Source: Tannerellaceae bacterium (lineage in GTDB: Bacteria; Bacteroidota; Bacteroidia; Bacteroidales; Tannerellaceae). From it: DNA of 14,918 nt. Shown here one piece after another: positions 1 to 14,100 of the stretch. Made by a program: the position numbers and the translations under genes. The first letter of the stretch is position 1; the number at the start of each line of letters is the position of its first letter. The stretch lies in contig JAITHO010000153.1 of the NCBI GenBank assembly GCA_031279915.1, positions 1 through 14,918 of the forward strand. Direction: 5' to 3'. The notes under the pieces were generated by a model. That model saw only the letters and a list, made by a program, of their open reading frames with translations. It was not told where the DNA came from and did not search any database.

Positions 1-1307
1 CCCATGCCGCCGTCGCCAACCCAGAAGGATCCAACGAACCACCCGAAGCTGAACTTGCGGCAGATGGCGGCCAATAGTGTGGTTGCATAGTCTTTCACGG
101 CCCGACCCTTCGACTCGGCTTCGTGCTTGATGGCGCTCACGGCTTTGAAGGCGGCCGCACCTAAGATTGTGTACAAAACGTCGCCCGCGGCTTTGTTGCT
201 TTCTTTCGATGGATTGGAGTGATAGCTCCCGATGAGATCTTTAAACTGTTCCTGCTTGAGCCCAAGCTGACGCTTCGATTCCTCAACTATTATCCTGCAC
301 GCCATCTCCGATCCCTTACGGGAATAAGGCGCGGAGCCGGCTCCGTCGGCCACTACCATTATGTACCAACCATCTTCGAAGTCCAGCGCAAAGTCGTCGT
401 CGCGGGCTTTACCTTCTTGGGCGTGCGAGCGTCCGCGACGGCTTGCGCCTACCATGTCTTTCTTTGCAATCGGACCGTCGTCAACCAAAACGAACTGCAT
501 CGCCGAATCTTCCTTATAGTATTCAATCGAGGGAGAGGTTGGTATCGGTTTCCACAGCGAGCGAGGATCATGGTTGATAATTAGAATCATATTGTGCGAG
601 GAGTATTTTTGCTGGTTTGGCTTTCGGTAGAACATCTTTACCGGAAAGTCGCCTGCTTCGTGGGGTGTGCCGATAATATGGCTGGACTTACGGTCGTATC
701 TTAATCCTATTTGCTCAAGGCCTTCGAAGTAGATATCGTATATATCGGTTTGACGACGTATGGATAAGCAGTCAACAACGTATTGTTGATTCACTCTCCC
801 GTTCGGGAAGATTATCTGCTTGTCGCGCAACATTAGTTTGCCTGTAAGGAGGGGCATGGGTAATATTGGAGGGGTTGAAGATGATTGTTGCTCGGATGAT
901 GGAGATGGATCCGGCTTTGGTTTCGGCCAAGGAGGGGGCTCCGGATAGTATTCATACAATACTGGTATTGTTTTTTGGGGTCGTTCGGGCTCGTCGTGCT
1001 TTGGATTGACTTCGGGAGCTGCTTCCGGAGCCGGATTTGACTGTGAGTTGGCTTCCGCCGGCGGATTATCGGCCTCAACCGATTCGCTTTCATCTTCCGA
1101 CGCCTCTGCATCTATTGATACTATGGGCGCTACCTGATCAAGATACTCGTCCCAAAGGCTGATGAAACATTCAACGATTTCGTCTTGCTGCGAACGGAGG
1201 AAGTTGTCAACTATTTTTTCTTTGTCGGGCAGCGATTCTATGCGTTCGTGCTCGACTCTGAGTTTGCCGGCTATGTTTTCACATAGTTCTTTCCATACAT
1301 CGTTCAT
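1..1307 (-). CDS. PP2C-type Ser/Thr protein phosphatase of a Ter (TerY-P) cluster, 3' end outside window
   Basis: 435 codons are visible and the reading frame is still open at the left edge, so the gene is partial. Residues 1-60 look helical. Residues 62-152 are an acidic, Pro/Ser-rich linker. Residues 153-245 are a probable beta-sandwich with an IIGTPHEAGDF signature like putative Ig (He_PIG-type) domains. From about residue 286 there is a PP2C_2-like catalytic domain: GRSHAQEGKARDDDF (292-306), ADGAGSA with metal-ligand Asp321, and WVGDGG with Asp432. The family hydrolyses phospho-Ser/Thr using two Mg/Mn ions. The ATG at 1307 lies 5 nt after the stop of the VWA-zinc-ribbon gene, and AAAGG at 1317-1321 is the only convincing Shine-Dalgarno site in this operon. 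In known TerY-P triads a PP2C sits with a TerY VWA protein and a kinase; the kinase would be expected beyond position 1. The phosphatase call is firm; the Ig-like domain is an inference from its pattern. Confidence 0.88.
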   Translation of the reverse strand, partial: MNDVWKELCENIAGKLRVEHERIESLPDKEKIVDNFLRSQQDEIVECFISLWDEYLDQVAPIVSIDAEASEDESESVEADNPPAEANSQSNPAPEAAPEVNPKHDEPERPQKTIPVLYEYYPEPPPWPKPKPDPSPSSEQQSSSTPPILPMPLLTGKLMLRDKQIIFPNGRVNQQYVVDCLSIRRQTDIYDIYFEGLEQIGLRYDRKSSHIIGTPHEAGDFPVKMFYRKPNQQKYSSHNMILIINHDPRSLWKPIPTSPSIEYYKEDSAMQFVLVDDGPIAKKDMVGASRRGRSHAQEGKARDDDFALDFEDGWYIMVVADGAGSAPYSRKGSEMACRIIVEESKRQLGLKQEQFKDLIGSYHSNPSKESNKAAGDVLYTILGAAAFKAVSAIKHEAESKGRAVKDYATTLLAAICRKFSFGWFVGSFWVGDGGM

Positions 1308-1312
1308 GCCTA

Positions 1313-2365
1313 TCATCCTTTGGCCCTGTTTATATCAAAGCCGTCGCCGCCGGCGCTGTACGAGGCCCGGTTTCCACACCATGGGCAGGTGCTGACCTTC
1401 TCGGTACCTACGCAATGAATATTGCCGCAAGTCCCGTCTAACGCAATGCCGTAAGGATTACCACAACACGGACAGGATGGGAAGCCCATGAGCTTGCTTG
1501 TACTAACTTTTAGGTTGGACGACTGCTCATCGGCTAGCTCAAAATATGTGTCGTCAACCTTGTAGGCGCCAACCAAGCGGTAATCGAGTCCAATGTCGCC
1601 GCTGTCGTCGGCAAAGACGTGCTTCTTATATTTAATCACGTAGGCCTGCTTTGTATTCTGACACTTTGCAAGTAATACTATGAAGGGATCAACCGTTGGC
1701 GGCTTAAAATCGGTTTTCGACAAGTCTATCTTGGAGATGGTATCTCCGTCGGAGCCTGCTAACTCTATTCCGTCGGGATGCGTGTCGACGGCCTTACTGC
1801 TGGTTTGTATGGATGCTGTGACCCACTTGAAGAACTCTTTGTAAGCTTCCTGGTCGGTATCCTTAAACAACAGAACCGTTTCTGTTAACTCGCCCAATAC
1901 GCGGCTATCGGTGTTATCTCCAAATGATATTGCTACCAAATTGACCTTCCGCTGCCAATTTCGCTTCCATTCTGCTATGGCGGCCTGGAGGTCGGAGGGA
2001 TTATCGGTTGGAACTCCGTCGGTGAACAAGAACACGATTGGCTTCCAATCACCTTTTTCTTCCAACGTCGTCGGCACGAAGTTCTTTCGTAGTTCATACA
2101 TCAAGTGGCCGAGCCCTTTGCTCAGAGATGTACCACTGCCCAGGGGGAAGCGCGGCGGATAGAAGCTAAGCACTTCTTGAAGCGGAGCCAATGTCTTGGC
2201 CTGACCCGCAAACGCAAGGACTGATACCCATACGGTCTCAAGAGCGTAAGGATCTCTACGTAGTTCTCGGATGATTGAGCCCATGCCCTCCTGAACTTGT
2301 TCTATCGGATCGCCCGCCATCGACTCGGAGACGTCAATCAAAAAGTAAACCGGTAAGCGTCTCAT
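1313..2365 (-). CDS. TerY-like VWA protein with C-terminal zinc-ribbon (TerY-C) domain
   Basis: 350 aa, cytoplasmic (no signal peptide). The VWA domain spans about residues 1-190 with an intact MIDAS metal site: DVSES (Asp11, Ser13, Ser15), a Thr near 79 in SGTS, and Asp116 in FTDG. A linker and beta-rich region (190-296) leads to a cysteine cluster: CPCC at 298-301, Cys313, Cys318 and CPWC at 327-330. These give zinc-ligand pairs as expected for the TerY-C module. VWA domains with MIDAS bind partner proteins through a divalent metal. In Ter systems this TerY type is coupled to a PP2C phosphatase and a kinase, and here the phosphatase gene starts 5 nt downstream. The first residues, MRRLPVY, are shared with the two upstream VWA paralogs, so the three genes arose by tandem duplication. 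Upstream gap is 26 nt; no Shine-Dalgarno, A/T-rich leader. Confidence 0.9.
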   Translation of the reverse strand: MRRLPVYFLIDVSESMAGDPIEQVQEGMGSIIRELRRDPYALETVWVSVLAFAGQAKTLAPLQEVLSFYPPRFPLGSGTSLSKGLGHLMYELRKNFVPTTLEEKGDWKPIVFLFTDGVPTDNPSDLQAAIAEWKRNWQRKVNLVAISFGDNTDSRVLGELTETVLLFKDTDQEAYKEFFKWVTASIQTSSKAVDTHPDGIELAGSDGDTISKIDLSKTDFKPPTVDPFIVLLAKCQNTKQAYVIKYKKHVFADDSGDIGLDYRLVGAYKVDDTYFELADEQSSNLKVSTSKLMGFPSCPCCGNPYGIALDGTCGNIHCVGTEKVSTCPWCGNRASYSAGGDGFDINRAKG

Positions 2366-2391
2366 GGTATTAGAAATAAATTTAATATGAT

Positions 2392-3024
2392 TTAGATTAC
2401 TGTATTGACTTCCGGAGGCGGAGGAGGTAAGGTTTGCTCTCCCGCACCTAAGCTTCGATTGCCTTCACTTACGGCCACTGTTACCCAGGCGAAGAATTTC
2501 CTGAAAGTAGGCCCATCCGTGGTATCCAGATGAACAATCTTATCCGTTAGAAGCTTAACATTCTCTGGCTGGAGCTTGTTGCCAACCAAACAAACTATGA
2601 TATTGCTAAAATTACAGCGCTTGATCTCCGGAATAACTTGAGTGAAGAGCAAACCATCCGACGCCCGACCGTCACAAAGTATGAAAAGGAGTGGGAGCCA
2701 GTCGCCTTTACGATCTTCAGACCCGCGCCGGACTTCTGCGTCAACTTTTTTACAAACAAACTCTAGCGCCTCGCCCAAGTGAGTCCCGCCCGCAGCCGGT
2801 TGAGCTATGATCGGGACTTGCACCTGTTCGAGTGAAGTCAGAGGCAGTATCTGTTCGGGATATCGATTGAAGGTTATCATGCTCAGATGAACAGTTTCCA
2901 ATGCATACGGATCTTGTCGTAATGACGCAACCATAGTTTCCAATCCCACCTTTATGGCTTCGATGGGTTCGCCCCGCATCGCGCCTGATGTTTGAATCAA
3001 TATATAAACAGGAAGCCGCCTCAT
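2392..3024 (-). CDS. VWA-domain protein (TerY-like) with degenerate MIDAS
   Basis: 210 aa, a single VWA domain starting with the same MRRLPVY as its neighbours and sharing the DPYALET segment near residues 38-44. The first MIDAS motif should read DxSxS, but here it is QTSGA: Gln11 replaces the metal-binding Asp and Ala15 replaces the last Ser. Thr81 and Asp118 (CDG) remain. Metal binding is therefore probably weak or lost, and the protein may act as a non-metal partner of the intact paralogs. It ends in a polyproline tail, LPPPPPEVN, shared with the next VWA protein upstream. Gaps are 22 nt to the upstream gene and 26 nt to the downstream gene, consistent with one operon. The domain call is firm; loss of metal binding is an inference from the replaced residues. 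Confidence 0.88.
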   Translation of the reverse strand: MRRLPVYILIQTSGAMRGEPIEAIKVGLETMVASLRQDPYALETVHLSMITFNRYPEQILPLTSLEQVQVPIIAQPAAGGTHLGEALEFVCKKVDAEVRRGSEDRKGDWLPLLFILCDGRASDGLLFTQVIPEIKRCNFSNIIVCLVGNKLQPENVKLLTDKIVHLDTTDGPTFRKFFAWVTVAVSEGNRSLGAGEQTLPPPPPEVNTVI

Positions 3025-3046
3025 GCTTCAATTACTTTCGCGGATA

Positions 3047-3685
3047 TCAAACTACTAGATTAACTTCGGGCGGGGGAGGAGGCAGCTCGCTCGGGCCACT
3101 TAAGTCGGCTCCGTTCTTCTCCAAATTGATGCCGGCCTGACTAACCGACGAGGATATCCATTTGAAAAAGGCCGAGATTGATTTGCTATCCGCCGTTGCT
3201 AACTCAACAACCGTTCCGGATATCTTTTTCAACACCTCCGTTTTGGCCGACGGACCCGCAGCGCATGCTATGATCTCGCCCGTCTTCTTCGTTTGCAACT
3301 CCTTCAAACCTTTCTCCCAATTGTCCGTAGGGCCGCCATCGGTCATGATGAATACAAGCGGCTTCCAGTCGCCCTTCACCTCCTGGGAACTCTTTGTTAC
3401 TTCAGTATCTATCTTCTGAGCGAGCAGAGATAAAGCTTCGCCCAGGGCCGTGGCGCCCGACGCTTTCAGATCTGGAGTTTGAAACATTGAAAGCTCTGTC
3501 AGCGGAATGATTTGTTTAGCTGATGTGTCAAAAGTGATCACGCTGAGATACGCGGTCTCTAATGCGTAGGGATCTTTCCGCAACGAAGCAACCAATTCTT
3601 GCATTCCATTCTTTACGGCCTCGATGGCTTCGCCCATCATTGAGCCTGATGTGTCGAGCAGCAAGTAAACAGGAAGTCGTCTCAT
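3047..3685 (-). CDS. VWA-domain protein (TerY-like) with intact MIDAS
   Basis: 212 aa, single VWA domain. MIDAS residues are complete: DTSGS at 11-15, Thr79 in SGAT, and Asp116 in MTDGGPTD. It aligns over its full length with the degenerate paralog just downstream and ends in the same LPPPPPEVN tail after a Gly/Ser-rich stretch. There is no signal peptide or membrane segment, so it is cytoplasmic. The ATG at 3685 is 5 nt from the stop of the TerD-like gene upstream. Family knowledge: VWA proteins of Ter clusters are thought to assemble with TerD-type proteins into complexes linked to stress, phage or metal-oxyanion resistance; the exact role here is not visible. Confidence 0.9.
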   Translation of the reverse strand: MRRLPVYLLLDTSGSMMGEAIEAVKNGMQELVASLRKDPYALETAYLSVITFDTSAKQIIPLTELSMFQTPDLKASGATALGEALSLLAQKIDTEVTKSSQEVKGDWKPLVFIMTDGGPTDNWEKGLKELQTKKTGEIIACAAGPSAKTEVLKKISGTVVELATADSKSISAFFKWISSSVSQAGINLEKNGADLSGPSELPPPPPEVNLVV

Positions 3686-3690
3686 AATTA

Positions 3691-4302
3691 TTACAGGTAT
3701 TTTGAGATTACAGTGTTCAGGGTCCCTTGTAAGTCACGGTCGGCGGTTGACTCGCCGATGGCGTTGAACTTCCATTCGTCGCTCCTTTTGTAGAACACAC
3801 CCATAACCATTGATACGCTTCCGGCAAATGTGGCGTCGTTGGCGATGTCGTAGGTTGCAAACACTTCGTTCACTCTTGTGGGGGTGCCTTCATAGATACG
3901 AATCGAGGCAAATGGGATGGTCTTGAAGTCGTGCCCTCTAAAGCTGTTCAATACGAAGGATATCTTGGTGACGGATGAAGGCAATTTGTCTAAGTCGACA
4001 GTTATCACCTCGTTGTCTAAACCATCATCGCCTCCCATGTCGCCTGTCAGATCGTCGCCGCTATGACGAATTGATCCGTTGCTCGAACGCAGATTGCCAA
4101 AGTATATCACTTCCTGCATCCTCTTGTTATCGTCGAAGGTCGCGCAACTTGCATCCAAGTCAACAGCCTCCATCTTCTTCATGCCGAAAAAGTTTTTCTT
4201 CTCAATGGCGCCCCAGTTAACGCCAACGCAAATTGTTTGCAGCTTCTTGCCGCCGCTCTTTTCCAGATTTATCCTCTGGCCCTTTTCTAATTTGATCGCC
4301 AT
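3691..4302 (-). CDS. TerD-family calcium-binding stress protein (TerZ/TerX-like)
   Basis: 203 aa, complete TerD-type domain. It opens with MAIKLEKGQRINL, has VGVNWG at 26-31, an inserted Lys/Phe-rich loop (34-46), and VDLDAS at 47-52. The acidic SGDDLTGDMGGDDGLDNE segment (81-98) holds the expected Ca2+ ligands, and the domain closes with the conserved DEWKFNAIG (175-183). The longer loop and the ICVGVNWG start fit the TerZ/TerX branch better than TerD itself, but no exact symbol is assigned. It sits 5 nt after the other TerD-family gene and 5 nt before the first VWA gene, so all are surely cotranscribed. No Shine-Dalgarno is seen; the leader is A/T-rich. Confidence 0.9.
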   Translation of the reverse strand: MAIKLEKGQRINLEKSGGKKLQTICVGVNWGAIEKKNFFGMKKMEAVDLDASCATFDDNKRMQEVIYFGNLRSSNGSIRHSGDDLTGDMGGDDGLDNEVITVDLDKLPSSVTKISFVLNSFRGHDFKTIPFASIRIYEGTPTRVNEVFATYDIANDATFAGSVSMVMGVFYKRSDEWKFNAIGESTADRDLQGTLNTVISKYL

Positions 4303-4307
4303 AATGA

Positions 4308-4871
4308 TTATACATATTTATTTAAGAAGTATTCCAAGCCGCCCTTATAACCTATACCCATAGCTTCGAATTTCCACTCGTCATCCTTCTTGTACAAACG
4401 TCCGAATTCAACGGCCGTCTCAATTGAGAAGTCTTCCTCAAGTTCATACTTGGCTATCACCTCCGAAGTATTCGTGTCATAAATACGAATGAAGGAGTTG
4501 CGAACCTGGCCGAAGTTCTGCCTACGTGCTTCTGCCTCGTGGATGGTTACCGTGAAGACGATTGATTGTATGCGCGGGTCTATTCGGTTCAAATCCACCG
4601 TCAACGTTTCATCATCTCCGTCGCTGTTGCCGCCGGTGGTGTCGTCGCCAGATGATTCTACGGCCCCGTCGGGCGATTTGGGCTGGTTATAGAATATAAA
4701 GAACTCCTCCTGCGGCACTTTGCCGTTAGCTCCAAGCATAAACGCCGATGCGTCGAGGTCAAAGTCGGCGCCAGTACCTTGATTTGGATCCCAGCCTAAG
4801 CCAAGACTTACCTTTGACAGCCCAATTCCAATGCGCTGTCCCTTAACTAATTTTTCTAACTTAATTGCCAT
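4308..4871 (-). CDS. terD: TerD-family calcium-binding stress protein
   Basis: 187 aa from the ATG at 4871, the usual TerD length (about 190 aa). An in-frame ATG at 4961 would add 30 residues unlike any TerD family N-terminus, so it was not used. Motifs: GLGWDPN at 24-30, FDLDASAFML at 37-46, the acidic Ca2+-binding segment GDDTTGGNSDGDDE at 75-88, and DEWKFEAMG at 164-172. TerD proteins are soluble, bind two Ca2+ ions, and belong to the tellurite/phage/colicin resistance group. It is the first gene of the minus-strand operon running to the phosphatase. A TAnnTTTG promoter candidate lies about 100 nt upstream. The symbol is family-level; it could equally be called TerE. Confidence 0.92.
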   Translation of the reverse strand: MAIKLEKLVKGQRIGIGLSKVSLGLGWDPNQGTGADFDLDASAFMLGANGKVPQEEFFIFYNQPKSPDGAVESSGDDTTGGNSDGDDETLTVDLNRIDPRIQSIVFTVTIHEAEARRQNFGQVRNSFIRIYDTNTSEVIAKYELEEDFSIETAVEFGRLYKKDDEWKFEAMGIGYKGGLEYFLNKYV

Positions 4872-4968: not shown

Positions 4969-4997
4969 CAAAAATAACAAATTTAATCAGATGCAAA
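4969..4997 (-). promoter_or_regulatory. candidate Bacteroidota promoter for the ter operon
   Basis: On the minus strand, TTTG (4994-4997) is followed after 17 nt by TATTTTTG (4969-4976), matching the Bacteroidota -33/-7 pattern TTTG...TAnnTTTG, with spacing 1-2 nt shorter than typical. Transcription would start about 90 nt upstream of the terD ATG. A second overlapping match, TAAGTTTG, ends at 4994. Seen by eye only. Confidence 0.4.
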
Positions 4998-5076: not shown

Positions 5077-5913
5077 TTAGGATTTCTCCGAGGATGCAGG
5101 AGGAGTTTTTGAGGATGATTTGGCTTCCTGCTTTGGCGCTTGGCCCGCGCTATCAGTTTGGCTGGATTCCTTTTTGCGATTACGAGCCACAATGCTAGCA
5201 TGACGATGATAAATGGCCATGAACTGATCGATATTCATATTTATGAGACCTATAATCCTAGTCATCCTCGCCTTAAGTTCAGATGGAAACGGCAAGAGCA
5301 TGATGCCGGTGATAGCTTTGCAAAAGTTGCCGAAGGATCTGTTCATCTTCCGACGCACAGTATGACCTTTGCCCAGGCTCTTTTGCTCAATGCGCACCTG
5401 ATTCCTGTTATTGTATTGCTCGTCGAACTCGTCATTGGCCGCCTCAAGCCTATCAACAATCTCCTTCAAGTTGTATTTCACCAAGGATGAATCATATTGC
5501 CGCAAGTTGCTTATCATGGCGCGAATCAATGTGGTTTCAGTTTCATACTCTTTCTTGTCGGCCTGCTTGTGCTCATTAATGATTAGCTTCAGGCGCAATG
5601 CCTCCAAGCGCTCTTCTTCTGATTGCGGATATCTGACAAAGGGCGACAAACGACTTGCAAGCGCTCGCATACTGAAGTCGCGTCCCTTATCCTTGCGCGC
5701 AATATTCCTTGTTTCGTACAGCGTTTGATTGTTCAGAAATATAGCTTCTAACTGCTCCCAATTTTCCTTCAGATCGTTGAACAAATCAACAAGCTCAGGT
5801 ATCGTTGCTATCTCGGCCTCAACCTCAGTTATAATATTCTTAACGAACTGCAGATTCTTGCCCATTTCAAGTCTGCTTAAAAGATTGCTGTAAGACTTAA
5901 TTTCAATTTGCAT
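5077..5913 (-). CDS. DUF6261-like helical protein of unknown function
   Basis: 278 aa, almost wholly helix-forming, with heptad-like stretches at 20-60, 100-135 and 145-170. Features recalled for the Bacteroidota family DUF6261 are visible: an RDFSMRALASRL segment (a conserved RD after an early helical pair), an EEERLEALRL stretch, and an ANDEFDEQYNNRN motif late in the protein. The last 32 residues are low-complexity Ser/Lys/Gln/Pro. No signal peptide or clear membrane helix, although GIMLLPFPSEL is locally hydrophobic. It lies 205 nt upstream of terD on the same strand, but each gene has its own promoter candidate, so a functional link to the Ter genes is unproven. The family assignment is from memory of the pattern and moderate only. 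Confidence 0.72.
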   Translation of the reverse strand: MQIEIKSYSNLLSRLEMGKNLQFVKNIITEVEAEIATIPELVDLFNDLKENWEQLEAIFLNNQTLYETRNIARKDKGRDFSMRALASRLSPFVRYPQSEEERLEALRLKLIINEHKQADKKEYETETTLIRAMISNLRQYDSSLVKYNLKEIVDRLEAANDEFDEQYNNRNQVRIEQKSLGKGHTVRRKMNRSFGNFCKAITGIMLLPFPSELKARMTRIIGLINMNIDQFMAIYHRHASIVARNRKKESSQTDSAGQAPKQEAKSSSKTPPASSEKS

Positions 5914-5952: not shown

Positions 5953-5988
5953 TATATTAATTTGATTGATGAAAACCGTCAGCAGATA

Positions 5989-6492
5989 AAAAGCGTCCGA
6001 TTTTTGCTTCCCCAGAATGTTCGGCAAGTGAAAAGCGTCCGATTTTTACCTCCCCAGAATGTTCGGCAAGTGAAAAGCTTCCGCTTTTTACTTCCCCAAA
6101 ATGTTCGGCAAGTGAAAAGCGGATGACTTTTGCCTCCCCAGAATGTTTAGCAAGTGAAAAGCGGATGACTTTTGCCTCCCCAGAATGTTCGGCAAGTGAA
6201 AAGCGGATGACTTTTGCCTCTCCGAAATGTTTGGCAAGCAAAAAGCGGATGACTTTTGCCTCTCCGAAATGTTTAGCAAGTGAAAAGCGGATGACTTTTA
6301 GCTCCTCAGAATGTTTAGGAAGCAAAAAGCGGATGACTTTTACTTCCTAGGAATGTTTAGGAAGCAAAAAGCGGATGACTTTTACTTCTCCAGAATGTTT
6401 AGGAAGCAAAAATCGTACGCTTTTTACTTCCCCAGAATATTTGGCAAGCAAAAAGCGGATGACTTTTTGTTCGCGAACAAGTTATTGAATGT
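5989..6492. repeat. array of twelve 42-bp tandem repeats
   Basis: Units start at 5989, 6031, 6073, 6115 and so on every 42 bp to 6451, without a single indel; the last unit decays after about 6468. Each unit is an A4-N9-T4 dyad (for example AAAAGCGGATGACTTTT) plus a spacer of about 25 bp, of the type GCCTCCCC, AGAATGTT, CGGCAAGTG. Units 4-10 and 12 share the core GCGGATGAC; units 1, 2, 3 and 11 carry other cores. The array fills the space between the SDR gene (stop at 6482) and the promoter of the DUF6261-like gene. Because 42 is a multiple of 3, several frames stay open, giving 14-residue periodic pseudo-peptides, but stop codons arise freely in some units (TAG in unit 9), arguing against translation. 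Confidence 0.95.
6467..6480. repeat. perfect 14-bp palindrome at the array edge
   Basis: TTGTTCGCGAACAA is its own reverse complement. It replaces the normal spacer in the last repeat unit and lies 2 bp from the stop codon of the SDR gene. It could be a protein-binding site or a short hairpin; no T-tract follows it on either strand in a standard terminator arrangement. Confidence 0.7.
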
Positions 6493-7636: not shown

Positions 7637-7912
7637 ATGATGAATATTCCGGCATACACGATTAGCGCAAAAGCAATTGACTTTGTTGCTCGCATAGCTG
7701 AAAAGATAGTCGAATTAAAGGACTCCGGAGCTTATGACGGCAATTTTCAGATGCGAAGAACTAACAGGCTGCGTTCTATACACTCGTCGCTGGCCATTGA
7801 AAACAATCCCCTGTCTCTCGCGCATGTAAAAGATATAATTGCAGGTAAAAGATCGCTTGGATTACCTCAGCATATAATGGAAGTAAAGAACGCTAAGCTT
7901 GAATCAGGATAG
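7637..7912 (+). pseudogene. Fic/DOC family protein remnant, N-terminal region only
   Basis: 91 codons matching the start of the large Fic proteins of roughly 330-380 aa (Fic_N region): RTNRLRSIHSSLAIENNPLSL (41-61), then VKDIIAGKRSLGLP (64-77) and MEVKNA (81-86). SLAIEN (51-56) fits the [S/T]xxxE[G/N] inhibitory helix that blocks ATP binding in Fic AMP-transferases. The frame stops at 7910-7912, just where the catalytic Fic core (HPFxxGNGR) should begin, and no such core is found in any frame before the neighbouring gene starts at 7979. The protein therefore keeps the inhibitory segment and lacks the enzyme. A promoter-like TACATTTG precedes it, so it may still be expressed as a small peptide, but decay after deletion is the simpler reading. 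Confidence 0.85.
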
Positions 7913-12334: not shown

Positions 12335-13813
12335 ATGAACCTCCGATTTATCATCAAGATGCTGGGCCTCGTGTTTCTTTTCGAAACTATATTCATGGCG
12401 GCGGCTACGGTTGTTGCATATTGTTATGCGGAGGGAGATTTTGTGCCGTTCTGCATCGCATGCGCTTCTATTGGCTTCGCCGGAATAGTGTTTTATCTGC
12501 TCGGAAGAAAAGATGACGAACATTCGGCTGGGCCGCGCGAGGGAATGATTGTCGTTGCTCTCACTTGGGTTTGCCTCTCGCTCTTCGGCATGTTGCCGTA
12601 CTATCTCGGAGGATATGCCGATGGCGTCACTAACGCTTTTTTCGAAACAATGGCTGGATTCACAACGACGGGTTCGACTATAATGACTGACATCGAAGCT
12701 TTGCCTCACGGGATACTCTTTTGGCGCAGCCTCACGCAATGGCAGGGAGGGCTGGGCGTTGTGGTGTTCACAGCGGCTCTGCTGCCTCTGTTTGGCGGAG
12801 GAGTATCGCAGATGTTTGAGGCCGAAGTTACAGGAACGGGAATCAGTCACGAACGCTTCCGCCCCCGCGTCACGCAGGTTGCCAAGATGCTTTCGGGGAT
12901 ATATATCATGCTGACGGCTGTTCTTTGCCTCTTGCTCGTCATGGGGCCGATGGACTGGTTCGACGCTCTTAATCATGCAATGACTACGGTGTCGACCGGC
13001 GGATTCTCTACTAAAAACGCTAGCCTATCTTTTTGGGATTCGGCATATCTGGAGTACGTTGAGATGATCTTCATGTTCGTGGGATCGGTGAATGTCACAT
13101 TGCTATACTTCCTCCTGAGGGGCAACTTCCGCAAGTTCTTTGCCGACGAGGAGCTTCGATGGTTCGCTTGCATCATTGTGATATTCGTTGGCGCCACGGC
13201 TGCATGGCTTCTGTTGACGGCGGCGATCAGGCTGCCCGATGCGGTCTTGCCGGCGGCTGAGGAATTGCTGCGAAAGTCGGCGTTCCAGGTTATATCGCTA
13301 ATATCTTCTTCGGGCTTCACTATTGACGACTATGTTCCCTGGGGATCTTTCTTCTGGCTCTTGGCCATGATGCTGATGTTTATAGGAGGATGCACCGGCT
13401 CAACCAGCGGAGGCCTCAAGGCCGGACGATTTGCTATCGTCAACAAAAATCTCTCTAACGTGTTTCGCCGCCAAATGCATCCGCAGGCTATCCTGCCCGT
13501 GCGCATGAACGGACATGCCATCAGCTCCGACAACGTATACCGATGCCTGGCTTTCACCTTCGTTTATATTGCTCTCGCTATGACGGGAAGCCTTGCCCTG
13601 ACGCTATGCGGATTTGAATTTGACGAGGCTATCGCCGCATCGCTCTCGGCCATCAGCAATATAGGCCCCGGGCTGGGCGAACATGGTCCTGATTCAACCT
13701 TTGCCAACGCTTCTGCGCCGGCTAAATGGCTCCTATCTTTCCTTATGCTCACCGGACGCTTGGAGATATTCACTGTACTGATGCTCCTTGTGCCGGGATT
13801 TTGGAAGAGATAA
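12335..13813 (+). CDS. trkH: Trk potassium uptake transmembrane subunit TrkH
   Basis: 492 aa, about ten hydrophobic segments, inner membrane. The four selectivity-filter loops can be read: TTTGST near residue 111, STGGFST near 226, SSSGFTI near 325, and NIGPGLG near 446, each with the glycine of the K+ filter. GGCTGSTSGGLK (about 353-364) is the conserved TrkH/KtrB gate-region motif. With TrkA it takes up K+ driven by membrane potential or cation gradient. The ATG at 12335 follows an A-rich leader (AATTAAAAGCTCAA) with no Shine-Dalgarno. It is the last gene of the operon; the REP-like hairpin 32 nt downstream may end the transcript. Confidence 0.97.
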   Translation: MNLRFIIKMLGLVFLFETIFMAAATVVAYCYAEGDFVPFCIACASIGFAGIVFYLLGRKDDEHSAGPREGMIVVALTWVCLSLFGMLPYYLGGYADGVTNAFFETMAGFTTTGSTIMTDIEALPHGILFWRSLTQWQGGLGVVVFTAALLPLFGGGVSQMFEAEVTGTGISHERFRPRVTQVAKMLSGIYIMLTAVLCLLLVMGPMDWFDALNHAMTTVSTGGFSTKNASLSFWDSAYLEYVEMIFMFVGSVNVTLLYFLLRGNFRKFFADEELRWFACIIVIFVGATAAWLLLTAAIRLPDAVLPAAEELLRKSAFQVISLISSSGFTIDDYVPWGSFFWLLAMMLMFIGGCTGSTSGGLKAGRFAIVNKNLSNVFRRQMHPQAILPVRMNGHAISSDNVYRCLAFTFVYIALAMTGSLALTLCGFEFDEAIAASLSAISNIGPGLGEHGPDSTFANASAPAKWLLSFLMLTGRLEIFTVLMLLVPGFWKR

Positions 13814-13845
13814 GGGAGGTCAAAAGGCCTTCCTGTCCTCAAAAT

Positions 13846-13872
13846 AGGTCATTCCCGCGAAGGCGGGAATCT
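13846..13872 (+). repeat. REP-like palindromic repeat, left arm
   Basis: 27-bp element containing ATTCCCGC-GAAG-GCGGGAAT, a strong 8-bp-stem hairpin. Its exact reverse complement recurs at 13947-13973. It has the ATTCCC-N8-GGGAAT form of the dRS3 repeats known from Neisseria. It lies 32 bp after the trkH stop. Confidence 0.85.
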
Positions 13873-13946
13873 TCGATCGATTGCTGTGACGAATCTGTTA
13901 GCCCTTGTATGAATAACACATTTACATTCGTCCCCTTTTTGATCGG

Positions 13947-13973
13947 AGATTCCCGCCTTCGCGGGAATGACCT
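13947..13973 (-). repeat. REP-like palindromic repeat, right arm
   Basis: Perfect reverse complement of 13846-13872. The match extends inward another 6 bp with one mismatch (13941-13946 against 13873-13878) and outward through an A/T-tract with one indel. A 7-bp inverted pair (GACGAAT at 13888, ATTCGTC at 13926) is nested inside, so the whole stretch 13841-13980 can fold on itself. A third, degenerate half-copy (TTCGCGGGAATCAC) lies at about 13994-14007. Confidence 0.85.
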
Positions 13974-14100
13974 GCTTTTCTAATCGCCTCCAATTCGCGG
14001 GAATCACTTTTGCCCTCCATAGCCGAAGGGTTTTCTTTTAATTATTAAAAACAACTAACGACTTGCGCTGCTGAGGGGGAGCGCTGCCGGAGTATGGGCT

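Follow-up and report, generated by a model that had tools for sequence, protein, structure and literature searches.

The stretch analysed here, called the window, is one entire contig of 14,918 nt (C204; GenBank JAITHO010000153.1) of a Tannerellaceae metagenome-assembled genome (MAG) that is 2.09 Mb in size and 60.75% complete, and six genes of a Ter locus occupy its positions 1-4871, all on the minus strand. These genes make up the 5' portion of a Bacteroidales operon ordered TerD-TerX-TerY1-TerY2-TerY3-PP2C-kinase. In many Bacteroidales loci the kinase is followed by a gene for a Ca2+ P-type ATPase of the plasma membrane Ca2+-ATPase (PMCA) type, and we lean towards reading the whole as a Ter phospho-signalling module with the Ca2+ pump as its membrane arm. 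The role of Ter operons is puzzling, as tellurite is rare while the genes are widespread, being found on pathogen plasmids and in huge phages. A pump at the place of TerC would point to Ca2+ as the natural signal, which is testable in culturable Bacteroidota; if true, sensor, kinase, phosphatase and pump of a bacterial Ca2+ stress-signalling pathway would be encoded in one operon.

Transporter genes downstream of the kinase

The transporters were surveyed in 90 loci, 80 of which were found with TerY3 (the best 80 of 163) and 10 of which came from genomes carrying G handles here, with repeats left out (L013, for example, is the same contig as L010, and several of the loci with G handles duplicate named ones). 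Of the 27 Bacteroidales loci, five had no kinase in the examined DNA, and a further six offered less than 2.5 kb of downstream DNA with no transporter in it. This left 16 informative loci, of which ten had a PMCA-type pump, six neither transporter and none TerC. In the 59 loci of other Bacteroidota orders, TerC lay near in 39, neither transporter was present in 20 and PMCA was found in none, while the four loci of unplaced order gave TerC twice, neither once and no kinase once. Fisher's test returned P = 1e-8, or 2e-7 when L011/L126 and L056/L057 were collapsed, with shared descent ignored in both values. No TerC was found in the examined DNA of any of the 27 Bacteroidales loci, nor in the window's own genome at its present completeness.

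The pump gene always lay on the same strand, and in seven of ten cases it followed the preceding recognised gene after 1-31 nt or overlapped it; the longer gaps were 138 nt (L084), 290 nt (L076) and 402 nt (window genome). Nothing separates kinase and pump in L011 and L126. HAD and PRTase (phosphoribosyltransferase) genes stand between them in L127 and L084, HAD, PRTase and acyltransferase genes in the window genome, and a TerB-like gene, whose Pfam TerB and EF-hand matches stay below cutoff, in L056, L057, L076, L111 and L074. As to the identity of the pump, four Ter-linked copies of relatives scored 606-678 bits with TIGR01517 (PMCA; NCBIfam cutoff 507), and one linked copy kept PEGL and DKTGT when aligned to solved Ca2+ ATPases. 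In the window genome, a contig end leaves a 148-aa fragment of the pump, which matches Cation_ATPase_N (7e-16).

Ten ter-carrying genomes were searched for the pump at a threshold of E 1e-100. It was found complete inside the operon in G028, G475, G483 and G341, and as a fragment inside it in G000 and G479. In a PMCA tree, from which the contig-end-truncated pumps of L074, L084 and the window genome were left out, the seven full-length linked pumps are spread over more than one region, and well-supported branches force three label changes; these may represent separate linkings or a linking with losses. A similar linkage occurs on a plasmid of Alkaliphilus (Clostridia), with the order PRTase-StiP-HAD-TerD-TerD-AIM24-P-type ATPase. 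The two PMCA matches labelled as plasmid in Parabacteroides and Bacteroides look chromosomal, with no ter genes listed, and were set aside.

A 2012 study by Anantharaman reportedly sets out the Ter/TerY-P scheme, and it may already have noted the Ter-pump linkage. Otherwise both this linkage and the altered TerY2 described below look new, although literature naming TerD and a P-type ATPase exists (PMC12363816, in the part available, PMC13188454 and PMC5701452). The Bacteroides Jug phages have TerD operons in three described genomes and a Ca2+ P-type ATPase in most; unlike in the Bacteroidales loci, the accessible portion of PMC12363816 does not place TerD and ATPase in one operon and mentions no TerY or kinase. 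Viral contigs searched with TerY3 gave no pattern match, and the two viral PMCA loci showed no ter gene. Separately, an unverified 4.5-kb faecal record labelled "Bacteriophage sp." (L170) has a truncated Ca2+ ATPase frame together with three TerD frames, all on the same strand.

Phosphatase, kinase and VWA proteins of the operon

The initial annotation expected a kinase directly beyond position 1, on its left side. The window's own genome was searched with the PP2C and kinase of G017, a genome of the same genus. The C-terminal part of PP2C was found on contig C133 at 1-507, the window gene continuing to C133:510, and a Ser/Thr kinase 92% identical to the G017 copy followed at C133:568-2061. 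The first 119 nt of C133 match the window end exactly, and this stretch occurs at those two contig ends only. Since G017 also has the same gene order as window plus C133, with an uninterrupted PP2C, the predicted kinase position holds, and the outcome that would have counted against the initial annotation, a phosphatase lacking a kinase neighbour, was not observed. After the kinase, C133 carries genes for a HAD hydrolase, PRTase_3 and an acyltransferase and then, after the 402 nt, the start of the cation ATPase gene. In G017 the acyltransferase is present after the kinase without HAD or PRTase, on a contig that stops shortly afterwards.

The kinase matches Pfam Pkinase (3e-9), and its HSDLSYxN motif and four cysteines (C354, C359, C374 and C377, as CxxxxC..CxxC) are invariant in 21 loci, with no match to a Pfam zinc ribbon. 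Its predicted structure, a weak model with a mean pLDDT of 66.8, recovered the kinase fold followed by a beta-rich tail. For PP2C, residues D265, DG282-283, DG455-456 and DD517-518 are invariant in 21 loci, presumably with the metal ligands among them. The model of the full copy from the same genus consists of a helical N-terminus, a low-confidence proline-rich linker, a beta domain and a catalytic domain, and it supports a phosphatase fold for the catalytic part. Analysis of the structural models gave no identity for the beta-rich C-terminal part of the kinase or the beta domain of PP2C. At L014 (8462-9906) the kinase frame has one in-frame stop and is possibly a decaying or mis-assembled copy.

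The three VWA proteins share the N-terminus MRRLPVY and differ in the metal ion-dependent adhesion site (MIDAS). By alignment, TerY2 (2392-3024) lacks the first Asp and the second Ser, reading QTSGA where DxSxS is expected, and thus two of the three proteins are expected to bind metal there. The full motif was present in 64 of 65 TerY1 rows (one truncated), all 86 TerY3 rows and 65 of 80 TerY2 rows, L010 and L013 in this alignment being one contig. When TerY2 was counted over 86 loci with repeats removed, QTSGAM appeared in 17 of 21 Bacteroidales loci and two of four loci of unplaced order; the other orders kept DxSxSM in 57 of 61, and the remaining four have start-site extensions, behind which the motif is intact. 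A single branch separates the changed rows, which make up one clade, from all others (SH-aLRT 97; quick tree, MIDAS columns included), so the change is ancient and has been retained. The pump can also occur together with an intact TerY2, as it does in L011, L126 and L074. A conserved MIDAS change in one of three VWA proteins gives a way to find out which VWA contacts depend on metal. The calcium dependence suggested by the initial annotation gains indirect support from the Ca2+ P-type ATPase gene that many Bacteroidales loci carry after the kinase. Metal binding by all three VWA proteins is not supported.

Type III-A CoCoNuT operons likewise pair an intact TerY-like VWA protein with a duplicate whose MIDAS is damaged. 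There, according to the available part of PMC11090510, the middle Thr is lost and RNA targeting is predicted, whereas Asp and Ser are replaced in the window and no nuclease was seen in the operon.

Gene order was compared across Bacteroidota, as had been proposed, and the same order recurs. Among the 80 TerY3-found loci, PP2C was present in 77 and the kinase in 76, and TerY was present in three copies in 59, two in 15 and one in six, two of the six (L015 and L042) having less than 0.5 kb of upstream DNA. Two of the four kinase-less loci, L019 and L068, end too soon, and in the L019 genome kinase and PP2C lie on another contig; L016 and L017 have neither gene, by which the idea of an ever-present kinase was rejected. 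TerY_C is rare, being found in 9 of 393 genomes of the order (eight over cutoff) and in 12 of 123 genomes of the family, one of which is a different compact module of G015. Within the genus, L012 (117-5066) shows by eye a compact module of a short TerY_C protein, a kinase, a VWA protein, a PP2C-like protein and 264-aa and TPR-like frames, and its VWA protein has a weak PADLOC TerY match (E 0.003). An AIM24-family gene directly precedes TerY3 in L014, L018, L058, L068, L071, L073 and L083 (Pfam tested on the L073 copy).

The combination, first taken to be unusual, turned out to be the ordinary terY/TerY-P arrangement. TerY1 matched 2331 plasmid records at 6836 places; of the 25 records listed, 24 have three places, with identities of 63-67% in 23 rows, 48.5% in one and 30.5% in another. 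Three plasmids examined in detail carry TerY-TerX-TerY-TerY3-PP2C-kinase. The core is thus the known TerY-PP2C-kinase arm of Ter loci and not new, and the gene arrangement of the window is beyond chance, as the order recurs in Bacteroidota and a close variant is found on three Pseudomonadota plasmids. The plasmid ter loci of Klebsiella (pK2044), Conchiformibius and Enterobacter share with the window the gene families, the three TerY proteins and the order TerY2-TerY3-PP2C-kinase, and the terY3Y2XY1W arm of E. coli KL53 is of the same kind (PMC11003894, accessible part). On these plasmids, however, TerX/TerD stands between the first two TerY genes, whereas in the window it precedes all three; the window further differs in its changed TerY2 MIDAS, in the Ca2+ ATPase downstream and, in an incomplete genome, in having only two TerD-domain genes and no TerC found. 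Chromosomal Ter loci of Flavobacterium and Sphingobacterium have the order TerD-TerX-TerY1-TerY2-TerY3-PP2C-kinase, frequently accompanied by HAD, PRTase and TelA, but unlike the window they keep the TerY2 MIDAS intact and mostly place TerC after the kinase.

Proposed mechanism and competing explanations

Ca2+ binding by TerD is known from a solved relative. For the first TerD protein of the window, the nearest solved structures are 2kxt/2kxv and 3ibz, to which its acidic DFDLDAS and DGDDE stretches align. In the module that we propose, the TerD proteins would read Ca2+, kinase and PP2C would set the phosphorylation state of the TerD and TerY proteins, and TerY1 and TerY3 would bind partners through metal, with TerY2 as a metal-independent structural partner. 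The pump would lower or restore cytosolic Ca2+ at the membrane complex, at the site of TerC in other Ter systems. HAD and PRTase, where present, would synthesise the nucleoside-like signal that has been suggested for such systems. In the available portion of PMC7824862, PRTase and HAD are the signal makers, TerB and TerD the sensors and TerC the membrane part. Such a module could protect against envelope or oxidative stress and perhaps against phage or colicin. A more specific version, in which a dedicated Ca2+ pump takes the place of TerC in Bacteroidales, TerY2 is metal-blind, Ca2+ is the physiological ion, TerD serves as scaffold and kinase/PP2C as gate, is put forward only tentatively and seems rather doubtful to us.

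Several observations weigh against a pump-bearing signalling module. The six informative Bacteroidales loci without a pump have been mentioned, and the 20 loci of other orders with neither transporter are all Flavobacteriales, with 5-6 kb after the kinase examined. The pump lies elsewhere in G172 (about 53 kb away) and G504 (on a contig without any ter gene found), and none was found at the search threshold in G017 and G505. At L074 the kinase and TerB-like genes are about 1.1 kb apart, with a 348-aa open reading frame (ORF) in between. In the window genome, co-transcription is doubtful because the acyltransferase gene and 402 nt with repeats precede the pump. Where the linked pump is complete, in four genomes, no second PMCA was found at E 1e-100, which would also fit a housekeeping gene standing there by chance. 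Nor is the linkage general, since no ter genes are listed around PMCA on Cetobacterium, Roseburia and Calothrix plasmids. Lastly, L016 and L017 carry TerD-TerX-TerY1-3, yet neither their surroundings nor the rest of their MAGs (completeness not stated) yielded a kinase or phosphatase, and hence the phospho arm may be dispensable.

A first alternative is a plain, already described TerY-P/Ter stress module in which the Ca2+ ATPase is a frequent neighbour without functional tie, either at a landing site or as a housekeeping gene. We regard this as the most serious competitor, though an unlikely one. Its core order matches that of plasmid ter loci, six of the 16 informative Bacteroidales loci have no pump, and a search of 27 Bacteroidales genomes at E 1e-100 found a single PMCA in 18 of them, whether or not they carry ter. 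Families c7 (L155, L157; L011, L126) and c16 (L156; L056) adjoin free as well as linked pumps. Beyond these two families, however, the flanks of linked and free pumps have nothing in common, and none of the 14 Bacteroidales PMCA loci outside ter operons (G172 and G504 included; 11.7-19.5 kb examined in each) shows a ter gene. The short gaps and constant strand described above, the origin of linked pumps from more than one PMCA lineage and the similar linkage on the Clostridia plasmid also argue for more than neighbourhood. Family c7 itself looks by eye like a tyrosine integrase.

A second alternative, to which we give a small chance, is a metal or oxidative stress module acting mainly through tellurite, Zn or Mn handling with Ca2+ incidental, comparable to TerC in Klebsiella, where deleting terC has consequences for Te, Zn, Mn and phage (PMC12054061, accessible part). 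Against it speak the failure to find TerC in the window's genome, at 60.75% completeness, or in the examined DNA of the 27 Bacteroidales loci, and the Ca2+ type of the transporter that is present.

An anti-phage defence system of TerY-P type is the least probable explanation. VWA, PP2C and Ser/Thr kinase do make up the composition named TerY-P (accessible parts of PMC7699616 and PMC10889362), the distribution of TerY_C in the family is patchy and an integrase-like gene (by eye) adjoins two loci, but the TerY-P of Gao et al. 2020, as given in the available parts of PMC7699616 and PMC11090510, has three genes with one VWA protein and no mention of TerD, and the stand-alone TerY-P-like modules carry an OB-fold kinase (PMC11090510, same part) in place of the Cys pattern and beta-rich tail seen here. 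In addition, PADLOC gave no TerY match at E 0.01 for the three TerY proteins of the window, no TerY-P match for the L010 phosphatase, only weak matches of the L010 kinase to kinases of other defence systems (best E 2.5e-5) and no credible match among seven window proteins scanned. The only match in the window, of TerY3 to a type IIG restriction model (E 0.0025), was taken as chance.

Genes and surroundings of the operon in the window

Pfam agrees with the six gene identities first proposed (Table 1), and the Ter family background was likewise borne out (TerD E 2e-68 and 6e-39; TerY_C 5e-39). NCBIfam named no operon protein of the window above a cutoff. The six genes are as closely packed as was initially described, with intergenic gaps of 5, 5, 22 and 26 nt; the fifth gap is 5 nt only if PP2C starts at 1307, and a start at 1316 gives a 4-nt overlap instead. 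The PP2C frame runs off base 1. The first terD gene has its ATG at 4871, while the mechanically called ORF begins at a TTG further upstream. The promoter pattern, based on what we take to be the Bacteroides consensus, matched twice in the window against 0.25 expected, the second match lying inside terD on the opposite strand.

Table 1. Operon genes and candidate promoter in the window
Feature	Coordinates	Strand	Basis
terD-like gene 1, at the head of the operon, 187 aa	4308..4871	-	Pfam TerD 2.1e-68
terX-like TerD gene 2, 203 aa	3691..4302	-	Pfam TerD 5.9e-39
TerY1, VWA, intact MIDAS DTSGS..T..D	3047..3685	-	Pfam VWA 2.7e-13; MIDAS by alignment
TerY2, VWA, changed MIDAS QTSGA..T..D	2392..3024	-	Pfam VWA 1.8e-9; MIDAS by alignment
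TerY3, VWA (intact MIDAS) and TerY_C metal-binding domain	1313..2365	-	Pfam VWA 1.1e-12, TerY_C 5.2e-39
PP2C phosphatase, 5' part, cut at contig end	1..1307	-	Pfam PP2C_2 3e-24
Possible Bacteroides-type promoter, TTTG-N17-TANNTTTG	4969..4997	-	Pattern match, about 97 nt before the terD ATG

A DUF6261 gene (5077-5913) lies upstream of terD on the same strand and is probably outside the operon, because phmmer found none in locus L010. Between the DUF6261 and epimerase genes, about 11 copies of a 42-bp tandem repeat (5988-6467) are open in more than one reading frame, and a similar-looking ORF of short repeat units occurs on C133 (L103 4733-5092). An empty-site comparison within the genus failed, as the flanking epimerase was found in only G000 and G017 of 18 genomes (E 1e-60). 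At 7637-7912, a 91-aa start resembles by eye the 333-aa Fic-type protein of L010, where the long copy adjoins the same GAF-like and epimerase genes. The ORF at 13726-13983 contains the peptide PRRRESS...SRLRGND, which we take to be typical of short palindromic dispersed repeats. The nearest named relative among the matches listed is the Tannerellaceae MAG Pc512_bin25, at 86% over TerY3, whose name presumably refers to a termite-gut collection.

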